NCBI GenBank assembly: GCA_903901875.1
Contig: CAIUSO010000094.1
Location: forward strand, 1-64,000
Origin: an uncultured Geobacteraceae bacterium
Lineage (GTDB): Bacteria; Desulfobacterota; Desulfuromonadia; Geobacterales; Pseudopelobacteraceae
Direction: 5' to 3'
DNA: 64,000 nt
Each line of letters begins with the position of its first letter. Within the stretch, counting starts at the first letter, position 1. Under the pieces are notes generated by a model. The model saw only the letters and a list, made by a program, of their open reading frames with translations. It had not been told where the DNA came from and did not search any database. Shown piece after piece: positions 11,211 to 19,893 of the stretch. Made by a program: the position numbers and the translations under genes.

Positions 11211-11276
11211 TTACTTTTTTCAAGAGCATCAATAATGGTAGTTTATAAACTATTTGGTCTTATTAAGGAGTATCCC

Positions 11277-13337
11277 ATGTCCTTATTACGCAGATCTGGA
11301 AAGGCCTTTGAAGAAGAAAGTTTTCTTACCAGAAGGATTAAACTTTTTTCCTGGATTATTTTTGCCTGCTGGACCGTGCTGATCACGGCATCATGGTGCT
11401 GGAACTACTATGCCGAGCAGCAGGTTTTTCACAAGGTAGCCCAAGCGGAAGCCCGCGCCGTTATCGAACGAGATGCGCTTTATCGCCGCTGGGCTGCGGC
11501 CCGAGGTGGAGTCTACGTTCCCGCTACCCCGGAGTCCCCCCCCAATAACTATCTTTCCCATATTCCTGAACGTGATATTTCCACCCCCTCCGGAAGGCAT
11601 TTGACGTTAGTCAACCCCGCGTACATGACCCGCCAGGTCAATGAGTTATCCAAAATTATAAATCCGTTTTTAGGACAGGCGCACATAACCAGCCTCAATC
11701 CGCTTCGCCCGGAAAATGCACCTGACCCGTGGGAGGCCGGAGCCCTTCGATCCTTTGAAAGTGGTTTGCCGGAGGTCAGTGAGTTGGTAACCGTGTCCGG
11801 CAAACCATTTTTACGACTTATGAAGCCCTTCGTTACCGAAGAACCGTGCCTGAAATGCCATGCAGAGCAGGGATATACGGCTGGATCCATTCGGGGGGGC
11901 ATCAGCGTCTCTATTCCGGTACAACCTCTGATTGATGCTGGCCAGGCCCAGTTTATCGGTTCACTGGTCTTCCATGGAGCCATCTGGCTACTGGGGCTTG
12001 CAGTGGCATCTGCCGGAGCCCGGCATCTGTCACGAAACGCCCTGCTCCAGAAACTGACCGAAAACGAACTCCACCTCCAGACGCTGCAGCTTGAGGAAGA
12101 GATGGCCGAGCGCCAGACTGCACAGGAGTTGTTGCAGAAAAACGAATCCCGCCTGAGAATAGTTGCCGACTTTTCTTCAAACTGGGAGTACTGGCGCTTA
12201 CCCGACAACCGTTTTCTCTATATGTCTCCGTCGGTCGAGGCCATAACCGGTTACTCACGAGAGGAATTCGAACATGATGAGAAGTTGATCCTCTCGATAA
12301 TCTATCCCGATGATCGGGAGCTGTTTTGTCACCATATCCATGGCACCGACTCCCGTGGACATGTTCAGCCCATAGAGCATCGAATAACCTGCAAAAATGG
12401 CGAAGTTCGCTGGATAAGCCATATCTGTCAGCAGGTTTATACCGCAGACGGTATGCCGTGGGGATGGCGGGCCAGCAATCAGGACATTACAGACCGTAAA
12501 CAGGTTGAAAGTAAATTATTTGAGCAGAAAGAACAACTGGTGCGGGAAGCCGCACAACGTACGGACGTCCAGGCACGCCTGGAAGAGTTGAATTATTCTC
12601 TGGAAGAGAGGATACGATGCGCCGTTGCAGAATCACGGAGTAAGGATCAAACTCTGATTCAGCAAAGCCGTCTTGCTGCCATGGGTGAAATGATCAACAA
12701 CATTGCCCACCAATGGCGCCAACCCCTCAACAATATTGCCCTGATCGTTCAGGGTATGCAGGTATCCTGCTCAATCGGGACGAGCACAACGCAAGAGTTA
12801 CAACACGACATAGACAAGACCATGGATGTTATCATGCATATGTCGCGCACCATTGATGATTTTCGGAACTTCTTCCGCAAAGACAAGCAGCAGAGTGAAT
12901 TTCCCGTGGGAGTGGCAATAGAGCGTGCCCTTGATTTTGTCTCGGCAATCATGTCAAGTCATGGCATCCGGGTTGAGTTTTCCGATGACCGGCAGATACG
13001 GGCCACCGGCTACCAGAACGAATATGCCCAGGTACTTCTCAATATTCTTTCAAATGCACGTGAGACGGCCGTTGAACGAAATATCAGTTCCCCCTGTGTC
13101 TGGATTGACGTTACCGGCATCAACGGCCACTCCCTGGTGACCATTCGGGATAATTGCGGCGGCATCGCCGACGATGTCCTGCCGCGGATATTTGATCCCT
13201 ACTTCACGACACGGGCTCCGGACAAGGGAACCGGTATCGGGTTATACATGTCGAAGATTATCGTTGAGCAGAATATGAACGGAAGCCTGACCGCCATAAA
13301 CACCGAAGACGGGGCAGAGTTCCGTATTGAGGTCTGA
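11277..13337 (+). CDS. Sensor histidine kinase with periplasmic c-type heme (DUF3365) domain
   Basis: A 686-residue membrane kinase. A first membrane segment (LFSWIIFACWTVLITASWCW) is followed by a periplasmic DUF3365/Tll0287-like sensor containing a single c-heme motif CLKCH at residues 191-195. A second segment lies at about 210-235, then a coiled coil, a PAS domain (FLYMSPSVEAITGYSREEF), another coiled coil, and a kinase core with the H-box NIAHQWRQPLNNIA and ATP-binding DNCGGI and GTGIGLYMSK. ATG 11277 has AAGGAG upstream. No response regulator is adjacent. A redox, NO or CO input through heme is an inference. Confidence 0.88.
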   Translation: MSLLRRSGKAFEEESFLTRRIKLFSWIIFACWTVLITASWCWNYYAEQQVFHKVAQAEARAVIERDALYRRWAAARGGVYVPATPESPPNNYLSHIPERDISTPSGRHLTLVNPAYMTRQVNELSKIINPFLGQAHITSLNPLRPENAPDPWEAGALRSFESGLPEVSELVTVSGKPFLRLMKPFVTEEPCLKCHAEQGYTAGSIRGGISVSIPVQPLIDAGQAQFIGSLVFHGAIWLLGLAVASAGARHLSRNALLQKLTENELHLQTLQLEEEMAERQTAQELLQKNESRLRIVADFSSNWEYWRLPDNRFLYMSPSVEAITGYSREEFEHDEKLILSIIYPDDRELFCHHIHGTDSRGHVQPIEHRITCKNGEVRWISHICQQVYTADGMPWGWRASNQDITDRKQVESKLFEQKEQLVREAAQRTDVQARLEELNYSLEERIRCAVAESRSKDQTLIQQSRLAAMGEMINNIAHQWRQPLNNIALIVQGMQVSCSIGTSTTQELQHDIDKTMDVIMHMSRTIDDFRNFFRKDKQQSEFPVGVAIERALDFVSAIMSSHGIRVEFSDDRQIRATGYQNEYAQVLLNILSNARETAVERNISSPCVWIDVTGINGHSLVTIRDNCGGIADDVLPRIFDPYFTTRAPDKGTGIGLYMSKIIVEQNMNGSLTAINTEDGAEFRIEV

Positions 13338-13348
13338 TCTCTTTTATT

Positions 13349-13810
13349 TCAGGAGGCCAGATACGCGAGAACCTGGTCGGGATGCAGCTCGGCCTTGGCA
13401 ACCTTGGCCCACTGCTTTCTGACCATGCCGTCTGGCCCTACGATAACCGTTGAACGTATCGTACCAAGGGTTTTCTTGCCATACATGGTTTTCTCGCCGA
13501 ATGCTTCGTATGCCTGCATCATAGAGCAGTCCGGGTCACTCAGGAGCGGAAACGGCAGACCATAGGCGGAAATAAACTTGCCATGGGCAGCAATACTGTC
13601 CTTGCTTACTCCCAGGATTACGATCCCCCGTTCACTCAAGGTCTGGTAATGATCGCGAAAGCCACAGGCCTCCTTGGTGCACCCAGGCGTATTGTCCCGC
13701 GGGTAAAAATAAATCACCACCGTTTTGCCGGCGTACTGCTGAAGTGTATGCTGCTCGCCATCGCTCCCGGCCAGCGAAAAATCCGGTGCCTTCTTCCCTT
13801 CCAACGCCAT
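13349..13810 (-). CDS. bcp: Thioredoxin-dependent peroxiredoxin (Bcp/PrxQ)
   Basis: A 153-residue peroxiredoxin that reduces peroxides with thioredoxin. The peroxidatic cysteine sits in PRDNTPGCTKEACGF, where the second Cys five residues on is the resolving cysteine of the PrxQ alpha-type enzymes. It is cytoplasmic, with no signal peptide. The start has AGGAAAGGTGG upstream. An inverted repeat AATTGAGTTCAATT at 13836-13849, 26 bases upstream, could be an operator, but I cannot assign a factor. Confidence 0.93.
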   Translation of the reverse strand: MALEGKKAPDFSLAGSDGEQHTLQQYAGKTVVIYFYPRDNTPGCTKEACGFRDHYQTLSERGIVILGVSKDSIAAHGKFISAYGLPFPLLSDPDCSMMQAYEAFGEKTMYGKKTLGTIRSTVIVGPDGMVRKQWAKVAKAELHPDQVLAYLAS

Positions 13811-13976: not shown

Positions 13977-14324
13977 ATGAGCATTACCCGTAAGGAGTTT
14001 TTCAGACAGAGCCTGTTTTCACTGGGCAAGACAGCCCTTGATCTTGCAGAATCAATAAAAGTACATCTCCCTGCCATTCCTGAACTGCAGCTGGAATCGG
14101 CATCACCGGAAGCCCGCCCTGATATGAAGGCCGAAGCCTTTAACGAACGGTGTCTGGCCAGTTCCCCGGCCTGCTCGGCCTGTATCGAGCGTTGTGCCAC
14201 CCAGGCGATCAAGCCGATTCCCGGTATAGGGGTCCAGATAAACCCGCTGTTCTGCACCGGATGCAGCGAATGTGAATATGTCTGTCCGGTAGAACCGAAA
14301 GCAATTGTACTGGTACCGAGATAA
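13977..14324 (+). CDS. NapF-like 2[4Fe-4S] ferredoxin
   Basis: A 115-residue protein with two Fe-S motifs. The first is C-x6-C-x2-C-x3-C (CLASSPACSACIERC), unusual in its first gap, and the second is the standard CTGCSECEYVCPVEPKAI. The odd first motif followed by a normal one matches the C-terminal half of NapF, the accessory ferredoxin of periplasmic nitrate reductase. The N-terminus TRKEFF resembles a weak twin-arginine motif but has R-K and only a poor hydrophobic stretch, so export is doubtful. It lies 283 bp upstream of the octaheme nitrite reductase on the same strand, which supports a nitrogen-respiration role. Confidence 0.78.
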   Translation: MSITRKEFFRQSLFSLGKTALDLAESIKVHLPAIPELQLESASPEARPDMKAEAFNERCLASSPACSACIERCATQAIKPIPGIGVQINPLFCTGCSECEYVCPVEPKAIVLVPR

Positions 14325-14400: not shown

Positions 14401-14465
14401 CCCTCATCCGCTCTGACGGGCACCTTCTCCCGGGGGGAGAAGGTGCCCGTCAGAGCGGATGAGGG
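14401..14465. repeat. Perfect 31-bp inverted repeat with 3-nt loop
   Basis: Arms 14401-14431 and 14435-14465 are exact reverse complements with only GGG between them. The arms carry CCCTCATCCG and GGCACCTTCTCCC blocks, which resemble dispersed intergenic repeats of many proteobacteria (recollection). A hairpin this stable can act as a terminator between the ferredoxin and the nitrite reductase, though no T tract follows. Confidence 0.92.
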
Positions 14466-14521
14466 CGAACCGTGGCCTCATGCAAAAAGCTAACTGAGGA
14501 CGCTGGTAAATAGTGACTAAT

Positions 14522-14535
14522 TTGATTTTGGTCAA
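14522..14535 (+). promoter_or_regulatory. FNR/HcpR-type operator before the nitrite reductase
   Basis: TTGATTTTGGTCAA is a dyad with four central bases. The left half equals the FNR half-site TTGAT; the right half GTCAA equals the HcpR-type half (consensus TTGAC-N4-GTCAA). Its centre is about 79 bases before the ATG, a distance that suits CRP/FNR-family activation. Which CRP/FNR protein binds is unknown. Confidence 0.65.
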
Positions 14536-14607
14536 ATGATTTATCGGTAATGTGCGCGACAATCTATCGTATGAGACAGTTATCCGCCTGACAAAGGAGA
14601 ACGAAAC

Positions 14608-16230
14608 ATGAAGAAGACGACCCTGGCCCTGGCCGCTGCGCTGGTTGGCGCACTAGCCCTCCTCTCCACCCCCCTGATTACCTCAGCCGTCAACAAGCCG
14701 GCAACTGCTGTGGCGGGTGATGGACGCGCCAAATGCTACGAGTGCCATGACGAAATTAAAGCACTCAAAGAAGGCTCAAAGCATGCAAAACTAGCCTGTA
14801 CGGTCTGCCACGACAATCTTCAGGCCCATGTCAGTGACCCGGAAAAGAACAAGCCGGTCACACTCATTGATCAGCAGTTGTGCGGGAAATGCCACAGGAG
14901 CCAATTGGAGAGTTTCTACAACGTCAACCGTGACGGAGGTGCTCGTAAGGAAAAAGGGGTTCCAACCGGCCGTTCACCCATGCAGGACAAACTGCTGGCC
15001 CCCTACGGTTTTACCATTGAGCATAACGAACCCCGCGGCCATGCTTTCATGGTCATTGACCAGTTTGCCGTGGACCGCTTTCAGGGGGGACGTTTCCAGT
15101 TCAAAGGAGGATGGAAAAATATTGATAAGACCGGTAAAACATGGGATGTCCTTGAAGACAAAGGTAAGGATTTCAAGCTGAAAGAAACCGCCATGGCCGG
15201 TAACCCGACCTGCATCCAGTGCAAAACCTCTGACCATATTCTTAAATGGAAATTCATGGGTGACAAGGATCCGAAAGCCAAGTGGGATCGCACGTCCAAT
15301 ATCGTTGACGTTGCCAAGGACACCAATAATCCGGTCGGTTGCATCCATTGCCATGATCCCCATGGTTCCCAGCCCCGCGTGGTTCGTGACGGCTTGATTC
15401 AGGCAATTGAGCGGGACTCCAGGACCAATATATTTTCCAAAGATGGCAAGACAGACCTGAAAGTAATCTCGTTCCGTGACGGCTTCCGCAAGATCGGCGT
15501 CATGGGAAAAACCGACTCACGCATGATGTGCGCCCAGTGCCATGTGGAATATGCCTGTGGATCCGGGACCCAATGGAGCGATGGCAAAGCGGTTAAATAT
15601 GACGACCAGAGGACGAACCACTTCCCCCTCAAGAATGCCCTCCAACTGCTGAAGCATTACCGGGAGCTTGATTTTTTCGACTTCAAACATGCCGTGACCG
15701 GTGCCCGCCTGATCAAGTTCCAGCATCCTGAGGCAGAGACCTATGCAGGCAGTGTCCATGACAAGGCCGGGGTCCAGTGCCACCAGTGCCATATGCCTAA
15801 ACAGAAGGACAAAAAAGGCAAAATGTTCTCCAACCATGGAGTTGTCAAACCAAAGCAGAACATCAAGGCCGCCTGCCTTGGCTGTCACAGCGACAGCAGC
15901 GTTGCCAAGAAACAGTACGAGATGGACTCCATCATCAACTATACTAAAGGGAAAATGCGTAAAGCCGAATACTGGCTCGGACAGCTGATCGACAATTATG
16001 CCGCCGCCCAGCGCATGGGCGTTACCGAAAGTGTTCTGACCCAGGCCCGTGAGAAACATGAAGAAGCCCATGTGTTATGGGAATACTGGACTGCGGAAAA
16101 CTCGGACGGGTTCCATAATCCGGAACTGGCACGGGAAAGCCTGACCGGATCCATCGCCGCCTCAAAAGCCGGGGTAAAGATTCTCAACGACGCCATGGCC
16201 GTAGTAAAAAAAGATGAGGTAAAAAAGTGA
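14608..16230 (+). CDS. Octaheme c-type nitrite reductase (ammonia-forming)
   Basis: A 540-residue exported cytochrome with a signal peptide (residues 1-26) and eight heme motifs: C43, C64, C92, C202, C245, C308, C391 and C423. Seven are CxxCH; the fourth is C202-I-Q-C-K206, the lysine-ligated catalytic heme of octaheme nitrite reductases (ONR, e.g. TvNiR). Active-site residues in context are Arg143 (PRGHA), Tyr315 (AQCHVEY), Gln372 and His373 (QHPE). Tyr315 is followed at +2 by Cys317, the spacing of the Tyr-Cys crosslink known in TvNiR. It reduces nitrite to ammonium with six electrons in the periplasm. AAAGGAG precedes the ATG. Pentaheme NrfA is ruled out by heme number and by the CxxCK motif being fourth. 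Confidence 0.93.
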   Translation: MKKTTLALAAALVGALALLSTPLITSAVNKPATAVAGDGRAKCYECHDEIKALKEGSKHAKLACTVCHDNLQAHVSDPEKNKPVTLIDQQLCGKCHRSQLESFYNVNRDGGARKEKGVPTGRSPMQDKLLAPYGFTIEHNEPRGHAFMVIDQFAVDRFQGGRFQFKGGWKNIDKTGKTWDVLEDKGKDFKLKETAMAGNPTCIQCKTSDHILKWKFMGDKDPKAKWDRTSNIVDVAKDTNNPVGCIHCHDPHGSQPRVVRDGLIQAIERDSRTNIFSKDGKTDLKVISFRDGFRKIGVMGKTDSRMMCAQCHVEYACGSGTQWSDGKAVKYDDQRTNHFPLKNALQLLKHYRELDFFDFKHAVTGARLIKFQHPEAETYAGSVHDKAGVQCHQCHMPKQKDKKGKMFSNHGVVKPKQNIKAACLGCHSDSSVAKKQYEMDSIINYTKGKMRKAEYWLGQLIDNYAAAQRMGVTESVLTQAREKHEEAHVLWEYWTAENSDGFHNPELARESLTGSIAASKAGVKILNDAMAVVKKDEVKK

Positions 16231-16270
16231 GCTGAAACAGAAAAGGTTCCGGATGGAAATGAAGTCAACG

Positions 16271-16300
16271 AAAAGGCGGGGAAATTATTCCCCGCCTTTT
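16271..16300 (+). terminator. Strong terminator after the nitrite reductase gene
   Basis: A perfect 12-bp stem AAAAGGCGGGGA/TCCCCGCCTTTT with a 6-nt loop. A and T flanks on both sides make it bidirectional, so it also serves the convergent STAS gene. Confidence 0.92.
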
Positions 16301-16324
16301 CGTCGTTACAACAATCTGAAAAAA

Positions 16325-16627
16325 TCAGTGCCGCTTTACAAAACGCACATTAAACGTCTGAACCACATTCAGTTCTGCAAGCAGATCGTATAACCGCTGA
16401 TCACCGACTATCAGTGACAAGCTTACCTTGTCGTGGTGGACCAGCTTCATGAGGTTACCAATCACTGTCGAAGTAATGGAAAACGAGTCGATGATGTTCA
16501 TACGCAGACTCTGGGCACCATCGCGACGAAGCCTGATGATGGCCTGCTTGATCGATATACTGTCTTCAATCGACTTGATATTTCCGGTTATGGTCAACTC
16601 GGAGCCGTCGTTATATTCAATCTGCAT
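16325..16627 (-). CDS. STAS-domain anti-sigma factor antagonist-like protein
   Basis: A 100-residue single-domain protein with the STAS fold pattern: strands at LTITG and SLRMNI, then the IDSFSITSTVIGNLMKL segment that in family members carries the phosphorylated serine before the helix. It would be the substrate in a partner-switch relay. The gene directly upstream encodes both a SpoIIE-type phosphatase and an anti-sigma-like kinase domain, the two enzymes that would set its phosphorylation state. It is the last gene of the three-gene operon, 13 bp after its neighbour. Confidence 0.78.
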   Translation of the reverse strand: MQIEYNDGSELTITGNIKSIEDSISIKQAIIRLRRDGAQSLRMNIIDSFSITSTVIGNLMKLVHHDKVSLSLIVGDQRLYDLLAELNVVQTFNVRFVKRH

Positions 16628-16640
16628 GGTCTATATCTCC

Positions 16641-18317
16641 TCAAATGGTTTTTAAAATAATCAGGCACCCCGAGGGGCCGCCAACAAAAAGGCTATCACA
16701 GTACCGGTCGATCATCCGTAAGCCCCTGCCACAGACGGCAAGGGAGTCAGCAGTGCCAAGACCAGCCAGAGGAATCCCGCTGCCACTATCCCGAATTTCC
16801 AGAGAAAGCAGGGGAAGCCCCATGCCACGCCAGAGTGACAGGGAAAGGGACATGGCGGAACCGTCCGGTGGAAGGCACGTTTCCAGAAAATCTTCATACT
16901 CTCCTGTCAGCATGATACGCTTCTTCTCGGCACTGTCAATCCTGAGACAGCCATGTTCGTAAGCGTTTGTTAAGGCCTCAGACAGCATCAGCTCCAGTTC
17001 ATCCCTCAACTGCTCCGACAGTGGCATTTCACGGTCCAACCTCTCCAAGGCCGTAGCAATTGCTCCATGGAGCGCATCATAACGGGGAGGCACCGGACAG
17101 CTCCAGTGCCAGGCACGGGGAAGATCAATGCGCCTGATATGAAGCATGGTGCGGTCGTCCTGTTCATAGGATGCACCAACCCGGCTATGGAACAGTTCCA
17201 GTAATGATGCCAGGGTCGGAGAAGCGATGTAATCATCAAGCAGATGTTCCCGATATTGCCCTTCTACCGAAAGTTCGGCATCGGAAAACCCGTCGGACAC
17301 AAGTAGCAAATCGGCAACGTTTTCCAGGGAAAAACTGGTGGTTGCCGCTGCACCGCTATAGGGTGAAAGGGGTGGGTTCTTGCTGCGAATACTGCTTACC
17401 GAACCATCAAGATCCCGTACCAGCAACGGAGGAAGAGCAAAAAGTGCTGTTTCCAGATTGAGATTTGCCAGGTCAATGAGCAGAAATCCACAGGAAACGA
17501 CTTCATCATCCAAAAGAATTCCGGCAATATATTCGGTAAAAAAACCGAGCATACGGGAAAATTCATAGCCGGAAAAGTGGAAAAAATGTTCGAAATGAAA
17601 ATTGCAAAAGGACGTCGCCAACAGCGTGGTCAGCGAAGCCGACAGGCCGGACCCCATGGCATCAATGAGGAAAACCATGACCCTGTCATCGGATAACCGG
17701 CAGATGCTGTAGCCATCACCACACATGATATCACGGGAAACGTGGGCAACATCAACCCCCCACCGATTGCCCCGACTGTCTGAAACTGTCTGAAAACGGA
17801 GGTCATGTCGAACAACATGACGCTCTTTCCTGACGGCAGCCTCCTGCTGCATTGAATTATACTGATCCCGATACCGCAACAGCTCCATCTCCTGCTGTTG
17901 ATGATGCCGATGGAACCGCTCGTTGGCTATTCGTTGAGAAATATCATCAAGAGCCTGCACCATCAGATCAAACTTGAACGGTTTGGGGATGAACTGGGTA
18001 ACCCCAAGGTTTATCGCCTTTACCAAAAGTTGGTGATCAATGTTACCGGTCATTAACACCACCGGCGTCAACCGGTCAGTCATACGGATCTGCGCCAGCA
18101 TTTCCATGCCGCTCAAACCGGGCATCTGCTGGTCGGTTACTATGATATCAGGGGCACACTCATGAAAAAGACGCAACCCCTCTTCACCATCCTCCGCCAT
18201 TACAATGCGCTTGAACAGGTGGGAAAGGCTCATCATCCCGATTTCCCTGAAAAACTCGTTATCTTCGACAAACAACAGAGTGAGCTCGCGGGATGGTAAT
18301 GCCGACGGCACGTTCAT
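16641..18317 (-). CDS. Response regulator with SpoIIE phosphatase and HATPase domains
   Basis: A 558-residue fusion. Residues 10-130 are a receiver domain with phospho-acceptor D62 (IIVTDQQMPG) and Lys in IPKPF. Residues about 160-390 are a PP2C/SpoIIE phosphatase (IDAMGSGLSASL, then LLLVSDGFSDA and DDRTMLHI). Residues about 410-558 are a GHKL ATPase of the anti-sigma factor kinase type (MLSEALTNAYEHG, then IRDSGSGIP). Phosphatase and kinase in one chain imply a switch for a STAS protein, and the next gene encodes one. It starts four bases past the chemoreceptor stop, so translation is probably coupled. Confidence 0.88.
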   Translation of the reverse strand: MNVPSALPSRELTLLFVEDNEFFREIGMMSLSHLFKRIVMAEDGEEGLRLFHECAPDIIVTDQQMPGLSGMEMLAQIRMTDRLTPVVLMTGNIDHQLLVKAINLGVTQFIPKPFKFDLMVQALDDISQRIANERFHRHHQQQEMELLRYRDQYNSMQQEAAVRKERHVVRHDLRFQTVSDSRGNRWGVDVAHVSRDIMCGDGYSICRLSDDRVMVFLIDAMGSGLSASLTTLLATSFCNFHFEHFFHFSGYEFSRMLGFFTEYIAGILLDDEVVSCGFLLIDLANLNLETALFALPPLLVRDLDGSVSSIRSKNPPLSPYSGAAATTSFSLENVADLLLVSDGFSDAELSVEGQYREHLLDDYIASPTLASLLELFHSRVGASYEQDDRTMLHIRRIDLPRAWHWSCPVPPRYDALHGAIATALERLDREMPLSEQLRDELELMLSEALTNAYEHGCLRIDSAEKKRIMLTGEYEDFLETCLPPDGSAMSLSLSLWRGMGLPLLSLEIRDSGSGIPLAGLGTADSLAVCGRGLRMIDRYCDSLFVGGPSGCLIILKTI

Positions 18318-18321
18318 CTGA

Positions 18322-19893
18322 TCAGGTCCTGAAATGGGTAAGGGCTGCCCGCAGGCTTTCCGATTTTTCAGCCAAGGAGGCCGAAACGCCTCCTACTTCA
18401 CTGGCAACGGTCCGGTTCTGTTCCGCTGCTTCGGTTATCCGCCGCATCAGATCAATCATCTGTTTGGTACGGGTGGCGATATAGGTACACTTGCTGGTCA
18501 ACTCCGACGAGATATCAACCGCCCCCCGAAGTTGTTCACCGGTTTCACCGATGCTGTCAATCAGGTGCTGAGTAGTGACCGAAATATCACGCATTCTCTT
18601 AGCACTGTCCTCATTGGCGGCGCACACCGAAACCACACTGTTCACCACCACAGACACACCGCTATGTATCTGGGCCAGTGAGCTCTGGGTCTTGGCAGCC
18701 AGTTGCCGGACTTCGTCGGCGACCACCGCAAAACCGCGCCCCATTTCACCTGCCCGCGCCGCCTCGATGGAAGCATTGAGTGCCAGCAGATTTGTCTGGT
18801 CAGCTATATCGGCGATAATCTCCAGAACCGAGCGGATATCCCCCACCTTGCCGGCCAGTTCCTGGGTCTGGGACGCCAGAGCCACCTGTTTTTCCGACTC
18901 ACTGATAATGATGGTTCCGGCCCTGTTGAGATCTGCCACAAAACTGCTCAGGACCGAGCGGGTCGCTTCAACGGTTTCCGTCGTCGAAATGGCCATTTCC
19001 TCAGTGGCATCAAGGTTACCGGCCACATCCTTGGTCAAGTTGTCACATTCGATGATCATGTCGGACTGCTGTCGCACGGTGTTCGACAGGTTGGTGGCAA
19101 TATGGGATAGCTCCTGACTACCACAGGCCACATTGTCTGCCGACAGTTTATCCTCGGCAATCACATCCCTGAACTTGACAATCAGTTGATCGATAGAGTG
19201 GGAGAGAGACCCCAGTTCATCGCCGCTTTTGTGGTTAATACTGACGGTGAGGTTGCCGCCGGCCATTTCACCCACCTTGCCGACAATCGCAATAATATGC
19301 TGGATAATGGCCTTCTTGAAAAAAAGATAAATACTTCCCAGCAGGGCCAGAAAAAACAGTAGACCGGGAATAATCAGTGTGAGAAGCAGAGTTACCACAT
19401 TATCATAACCGTCCTGTATGGAAGTGGTGACCAGAACCGCTCCCAAGTAGGTTTTAGACTCGCCATGGCACTGATTGCACCGTTTTTCGTTAAGTATAGG
19501 CATGGCAATAGTCAACTGATGGATACTGTTTTCCACCGTGGCAAAACGGACCTCCTTGCCGCTCTGAAGGGCCTGACTGATGTGGGCCTCCGAAGCCCCC
19601 CCTCCGGTACCCGCTTCCTTACCCTGATCATTGAATATCTTCAGATCGCGGACAAACGCCTTTTTTTTGGCCTCATCAATATACCGTATCACTTCCTTTG
19701 CATCACCACGGAGCATATACTCCTGAATATCTTTTATGATAATGGCGGTCAGGTTCCCGGCATTTTTAGTCTGCAACTCCATGGTGGCGTGATACTGGAG
19801 CCACATGGTTACCCCCCCCATGGATACCAGAGTGACGCTAAGGATCACCCCAAGAATAGATAGAACTTTAGTGGTGAGGGAATTATTAAACAT
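18322..19893 (-). CDS. Methyl-accepting chemotaxis protein with c-type heme sensor
   Basis: A 523-residue chemoreceptor. A membrane segment (residues 10-32) leads to a short periplasmic sensor with one c-heme motif CNQCH at 139-143, a second membrane segment ([27 protein letters not shown]), a HAMP domain and a cytoplasmic signalling domain. The hairpin tip has [20 protein letters not shown], the CheA/CheW contact. No CheA or CheW genes are adjacent; instead the next gene is a regulator with phosphatase and kinase domains. This suggests the receptor feeds a non-motility pathway. AGGAGA precedes the ATG. Confidence 0.9.

Follow-up and report, generated by a model that had tools for sequence, protein, structure and literature searches.

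An octaheme nitrite reductase gene and its HcpR-type operator in the genome of an uncultured Geobacteraceae bacterium

A multiheme cytochrome c gene in the genome of an uncultured Geobacteraceae bacterium (assembly GCA_903901875.1; 4.3 Mb, 169 contigs, estimated completeness 99.76%) raises two questions, namely which kind of nitrite reductase it encodes and which regulator acts on the palindrome in front of it. The gene lies in the window, by which we mean the whole stretch of 64,000 nucleotides that was analysed (positions 1-64,000, forward strand, of contig CAIUSO010000094.1; contig C94 of genome G000 in our numbering). A sequence-only reading had placed an octaheme nitrite reductase (ONR) with a mixed FNR/HcpR operator at 14522-16300, an interval that takes in promoter and gene, although the onr gene itself starts at 14608 (Table 1). 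The gene turned out to encode an ordinary TaNiR-type ONR, and its operator looks like an HcpR-type site, the usual switch of genes for nitrogen-oxide handling; the locus is largely what is expected for a known kind. As a whole, we consider it very probable that this ONR is encoded in a unit of its own, activated by an HcpR/DNR-type regulator, and belongs to a regulon together with napA and hcp.

Table 1. Features of the onr locus, with positions in the window
Feature	Position	Strand	Basis
Heme-c kinase (Tll0287-like, PAS, HATPase)	11235..13337		domains from Pfam
Peroxiredoxin (AhpC/TSA family)	13349..13810	-	Pfam match
NapF-like ferredoxin	13977..14324	+	Fer4 family matches at 65-106; two 4Fe-4S cysteine sets by eye
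REP-like palindrome between ferredoxin and onr	14401..14465	.	62/65 bases self-complementary
HcpR-type operator (putative) ATTTGATTTTGGTCAAAT, core 14522-14535	14520..14537	.	consensus from available excerpts of PMC1274295 and PMC545781, relatives, matrix
Candidate -10 element GACAAT	14558..14563	+	alignment of site-anchored upstreams
Ribosome-binding site AAAGGAG, ahead of onr	14593..14599	+	by eye
onr, octaheme cytochrome c nitrite reductase, 540 aa	14608..16230	+	ORF, heme motifs, PDB matches, alignment
Inverted repeat downstream of onr, terminator-like	16269..16302	+	by eye

The enzyme and its place among cytochrome c nitrite reductases

Translation of the onr reading frame revealed eight heme motifs (CYECH43, CTVCH64, CGKCH92, CIQCK202, CIHCH245, CAQCH308, CHQCH391 and CLGCH423), the fourth of which, as had been read before, is of the CxxCK type with Lys206. 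A Sec-type signal was recognised by eye, and the mature part begins at approximately Gly39 in the alignment to PDB entry 8rv0. This entry, together with 8rvm and 8rxu, represents the previously characterised TaNiR, which we take to be the enzyme of Trichlorobacter ammonificans, a close relative, and it was the leading phmmer match in the PDB (4.1e-252), followed by entries of TvNiR from Thioalkalivibrio nitratireducens (PDB 2zo5, 4q0t and others; ~2e-156), while the top NrfA reached 3.9e-27. With TaNiR the protein shares the heme order, the Lys at heme 4, the Tyr-x-Cys pair and the Lys-x-Gln-His motif. Its catalytic residues also fall in register with those of TvNiR, which includes the Y315-A-C317 pair, spaced as in the TvNiR crosslink. 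This pair permits a covalent Tyr315-Cys317 bond, which may likewise form here. The heme order further follows the ONR hallmark of three CXXCH, one CXXCK and four CXXCH motifs given in the available excerpt of PMC10716430, which also names a His that is conserved in the stretch from the sixth to the seventh heme site.

Searches of named genomes returned 164 relatives, the best 80 of which were retained. Lys206, Arg157, Tyr315, Cys317 and His373 are kept in TaNiR, TvNiR and 80/80 of these best 80 of 164 relatives, with His373 being the conserved His between heme sites six (308) and seven (391), and Gln372 is replaced by Arg in one relative of the same set. Individual deviations comprise CHVDYAC in place of CHVEYAC in one relative (L057) and seven visible heme motifs in a contig-cut sequence (L071). 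At the position of Cys317, a comparison set of 28 NrfAs (27 from genomes of the window's family and one from E. coli) contains Ile, Val or Phe and Cys in none, as against Cys in all of the best 80 of 164 relatives. Ahead of the active-site His, the window ONR carries Lys-x-Gln-His in the form found in E. coli and TvNiR; the 27 family NrfAs carry Arg-His at this position, a form that the available excerpt of PMC10716430 ties to calcium independence.

The Pfam family of the protein, Cytochrom_C552, covers NrfA as well, and a pentaheme-type NrfA or an HAO-type octaheme cytochrome was therefore weighed as an alternative to an ONR. We regard this as extremely improbable, as it is contradicted by both the residue comparison and the trees. 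Eight hemes with CxxCK as the fourth argue against NrfA, as does an identity to NrfA of 27% (E. coli) and 26% (a protein from the window's own family) versus 71% to TaNiR (over 497 residues); identity to TvNiR is 48%. Against an HAO-type protein stand the lack of any PF13447 (HAO-type) match in the genome and a long distance in the tree.

Two trees combining these groups, as the sequence-only reading had suggested, were calculated from 25 of the 80 relatives (best 80 of 164), 14 of the 27 family NrfAs, E. coli NrfA, TaNiR and TvNiR: one of 43 rows without PF13447 proteins and one of 53 rows with 10 of 20 such proteins added. In the 43-row tree, ONR and NrfA split at 96% SH-aLRT, with the window protein inside a set of 18 ONRs at 99%. 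The 53-row tree again returned an 18-row set at 99% that includes both TaNiR and the window protein, and NrfA formed one side at 96%, the ONR side receiving only 41% with the distant PF13447 outgroup, which was itself set apart at 100% and by a long distance. This tree carries a long-branch warning, which concerns E. coli NrfA most of all and also bears on TvNiR, found on an ONR branch separate from that of the window protein. The placement of the window protein among Geobacteraceae ONRs is thus firm on both trees, while the deep rooting is not. Judged from its sequence, the protein is an ONR of the TaNiR/TvNiR family, in line with the original assignment to ONR rather than NrfA or HAO. It would act in the periplasm, reducing nitrite to ammonium at the Lys-ligated heme 4, and would probably accept NO and hydroxylamine as well.

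Within the window's family, PF02335 matches occur in 66 of 76 genomes; by hand count of score bands, 48 genomes contain a match in the ONR-like range (117-217 bits) and 27 one in the NrfA-like range (>300 bits). In the window's own 99.76%-complete genome, the same search returned onr as its only match and hence no NrfA.

Neighbours of onr and the supply of electrons

The sequence-only reading had grouped the enzyme, the NapF-like ferredoxin and the heme-c kinase into one module. All three are present, but the kinase was rejected as a module member, since a homologue occupies the same place in only 1/80 relatives (L012; best 80 of 164). Weaker kinase matches were seen downstream in two more loci (L026 and L078), in a count that leaves out matches below 150 bits and in which short flanks could hide some. 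The ferredoxin, by comparison with the same set (best 80 of 164), has a homologue adjacent upstream of onr in 32/77 relatives, and a peroxiredoxin homologue lies upstream of onr in 21/80 loci by hand count. NapF is the best Nap-related match of the window ferredoxin, at a score far below cut-off, and the protein is 50% identical to the ferredoxin that follows napAB on contig C114.

The palindrome that separates onr from the ferredoxin has a calculated folding energy of -75.4 kcal/mol (z -11) and may terminate the ferredoxin transcript. The element is not specific to the locus: it is a dispersed repeat with 121 matches in its own genome, both strands of a copy counted, and many copies are paired at a distance of ~13-15 bases. 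We propose that onr would form its own transcription unit.

onr is also flanked by two sensors with CxxCH in the sensor domain, namely the Tll0287-like histidine kinase and a chemotaxis protein with a Mcp40H-20 sensor (18322-19893). In the region 16325-18317, a response regulator (16641-18317, minus strand) combines SpoIIE phosphatase and HATPase domains; beside it lies a protein of 100 aa without Pfam match that resembles a STAS-type partner by eye.

The earlier observation that the window holds neither NrfA nor NrfH was borne out at the level of the genome, as a PF03264 search revealed no NrfH-sized NapC/NrfH protein. Its two matches were a 536-aa frame with six CxxCH motifs, the sole one over cut-off, and an 1881-aa frame below cut-off, and a NapC/NrfH donor was rejected. 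Matches to PF12801 (NapH-like) lay on other contigs, in three frames (334, 427 and 518 aa). Six PF00384 matches comprised one NapA, one formate dehydrogenase alpha, two nearest NuoG and just under its cut-off, and, both under cut-off, one nearest PhsA and one without a name; among them no narG was recognised (best score 73 bits versus a cut-off of 1084). Electrons would be delivered from menaquinol through a donor, possibly aided by the NapF-like ferredoxin.

The operator upstream of onr and its candidate regulator

The operator TTGAT-N4-GTCAA is present as previously described, as TTGATTTTGGTCAA within an 18-bp near-palindrome (Table 1), and it recurs upstream of onr in relatives. Among the relatives (best 80 of 164), 77 offer at least 300 bp of upstream sequence, L006, L028 and L062 being left out as too short, and in 28 of these 77 TTGAY-N4-RTCAA lies no further than 300 bp from onr. 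In 200 mononucleotide shuffles, the chance level was 0.105 on average and 2 at most, and the reversed pattern occurred in 0/77 relatives within the same upstream regions. As the relatives are kin, the 28 sites do not represent 28 independent events; the operator upstream of onr is nevertheless real and beyond chance.

In 49/77 relatives, the 300 bp upstream of onr hold no perfect site, which is explained in part by a site at the head of a ferredoxin/nap unit. None of the 25 relatives whose ferredoxin ends at most 95 nt from onr has an onr site; in 7 of them the ferredoxin itself has a site at a distance of up to 300 bp, and in another 9, out of 11 whose sequence reaches far enough, a site lies no more than 650 bp from napA, so that a head site is present in 16 of 25 and accounts for 16 of the 49. 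Where the ferredoxin is adjacent but, like that of the window, separated from onr by more than this, the onr site occurs in 5/7 relatives, and where no ferredoxin is adjacent, in 23/45; neither an onr site nor a head site was found in 33/77. Two loci (L004 and L020) have nap, ferredoxin and onr in line yet carry the site directly before onr, and so represent a halfway form between operon and split layout.

Alignment of the window and the 28 ortholog upstreams on the operator revealed A at site start +37 in 25/29 sequences, a position with which the second base of the GACAAT element aligns. This supports but does not prove a -10 box, as the sequences are related. If GACAAT is the -10 box, the operator centre would lie ~41.5 bp before the transcription start, which is predicted near position 14570. 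A centre near -41.5 is the position of class II activators. An HcpR/DNR-type regulator of the CRP/FNR family would bind there and activate onr, probably in class II fashion.

The two halves of the operator had been described as one FNR-like and one HcpR-like, a reading that did not hold. Among the 28 ortholog sites, 18 are TTGAC/GTCAA, 3 TTGAT/ATCAA and 7 mixed, and one relative (L036) carries the identical 14-mer; mixed halves are thus ordinary variants. TTGAT matches the consensus of an FNR half-site, and on this ground we considered whether a genuine oxygen-sensing FNR, or two factors with one per half, might recognise the operator. CRP/FNR proteins bind as homodimers, which speaks against two factors, and the predominance of symmetric TTGAC/GTCAA sites, together with a genome whose one CRP-type HTH protein over cut-off has a single cysteine, makes either version very unlikely. 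With mixed halves at 7/28 sites and no recognised FNR, the two-factor operator was rejected. The operator instead looks like an HcpR-type site: in available excerpts, the HcpR consensus of Geobacter and Desulfuromonas is given as wyTTGACnnnnGTCAArw (PMC1274295), from which the window deviates in a single base, a T for C in one of the halves, and the HcpR site of Desulfotalea psychrophila frdX also has a TTGAt half (PMC545781, Table 10).

Profile searches of the genome for CRP-type HTH and cNMP-binding domains recognised no FNR. The HTH protein over cut-off is encoded on contig C109 (a second match, below cut-off, is GntR-family), and among four proteins with a cNMP-binding domain it alone also appears among the HTH matches. 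It has SETISR in the recognition helix, with the register set by eye against CRP, a single cysteine, and DNR (3dkw) as its top PDB match. One cysteine provides no cluster ligand set, which excludes the protein from the iron-sulphur FNRs known so far. It carries Ser-Glu where, according to the available excerpt of PMC1274295, these HcpRs have Arg180 changed to Ser or Pro, with Glu also given. Helix, single cysteine and DNR match point to a putative HcpR/DNR-type regulator, an assignment based on the helix and on exclusion, and a further regulator may have been missed by both models or may lie in an assembly gap.

A candidate regulon of napA, onr and hcp

A 20-position matrix, trained on 29 onr-upstream sites that all come from other genomes, was used to score the 31 exact cores in the window's genome (23 TTGAY-N4-GTCAA and 8 TTGAT-N4-ATCAA places). 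The three leading places, all intergenic, precede napA (24.8), onr (23.5) and hcp (19.0), with the napA and hcp sites lying outside the matrix training set; the next two (15.4) fall inside long ORFs. TTGAT-N4-ATCAA was rejected as a second site type, as its 8 places all scored at most 12.8. A symmetric TTGACGTTAGTCAA inside the kinase gene (11601-11614) scored 13.6, well under the three leaders, and is probably a chance occurrence. By matrix ranking and conservation, onr, nap and hcp are linked to one site type.

The nap genes, missed in the earlier reading, lie on contig C114 with a site of their own: napA (TIGR01706, 1069 bits, cut-off 930.55) is followed by a small diheme protein, taken as NapB despite having no NCBIfam match, and then by the ferredoxin. 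From this site it is 403 nt to napA and 156 nt to a divergent gene; on contig C149, the hcp site is 89 nt upstream of hcp and 28 nt from a divergent gene. As both sites also face these divergent genes, the latter could be the targets instead. The regulator proposed for onr would probably control napA and hcp too, giving a three-operon regulon for nitrate, nitrite and NO.

Excerpts of the HcpR regulon papers describe a site before hcp and predict control of nitrite and nitrate reductases (PMC545781, PMC1274295), including nrfHA and nar in Geobacter and Desulfuromonas (PMC1274295). The window's genome resembles this description in its palindrome, with the one substitution, and in the site before hcp, and differs from the nrfHA and nar targets given there in that its sites lie ahead of onr and napA; the supplementary tables of both papers may already include onr. 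The arrangement also departs from the Nap-ONR organisation in the available part of PMC11972089, where onr of T. lovleyi lies directly downstream of nap and the authors link this arrangement to T. ammonificans: in the window's genome, nap and onr occupy different contigs, onr is preceded by an operator of its own, and within the window only the NapF-like ferredoxin lies ahead of it.

A promoter of its own, nap on another contig and a site type common to hcp would also suit an ONR that mainly detoxifies nitrite, NO or hydroxylamine rather than serving respiration. We consider this rather unlikely, as the genome has a NapA with the same site type that would make periplasmic nitrite, and DNRA in T. 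ammonificans reportedly depends on an ONR alone (PMC11972089, available excerpt).

With this locus, there is one more genome in which the search for cytochrome c nitrite reductases found an ONR and no other. A 2025 review states, in its available excerpt, that octaheme enzymes coexisting with NrfA add unknowns to the regulation of DNRA (PMC12285233). For onr in this group, our analysis offers a sequence-supported prediction of how the gene would be switched, namely through an HcpR/DNR-type site at about -41.5 that is common to nap and hcp. What is added to previous work is a connection of onr, nap and hcp through a single site type, backed by conservation and matrix rank, together with onr as an independent unit in some relatives. 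More tentatively, and with somewhat less than even confidence, we suggest that in some Geobacterales onr has come off the nap operon and carries its own HcpR-type site, so that nap, onr and hcp may form a minimal three-operon regulon under one NO- or nitrite-sensing CRP/FNR regulator, in a genome with neither a found NrfA nor a recognised FNR.
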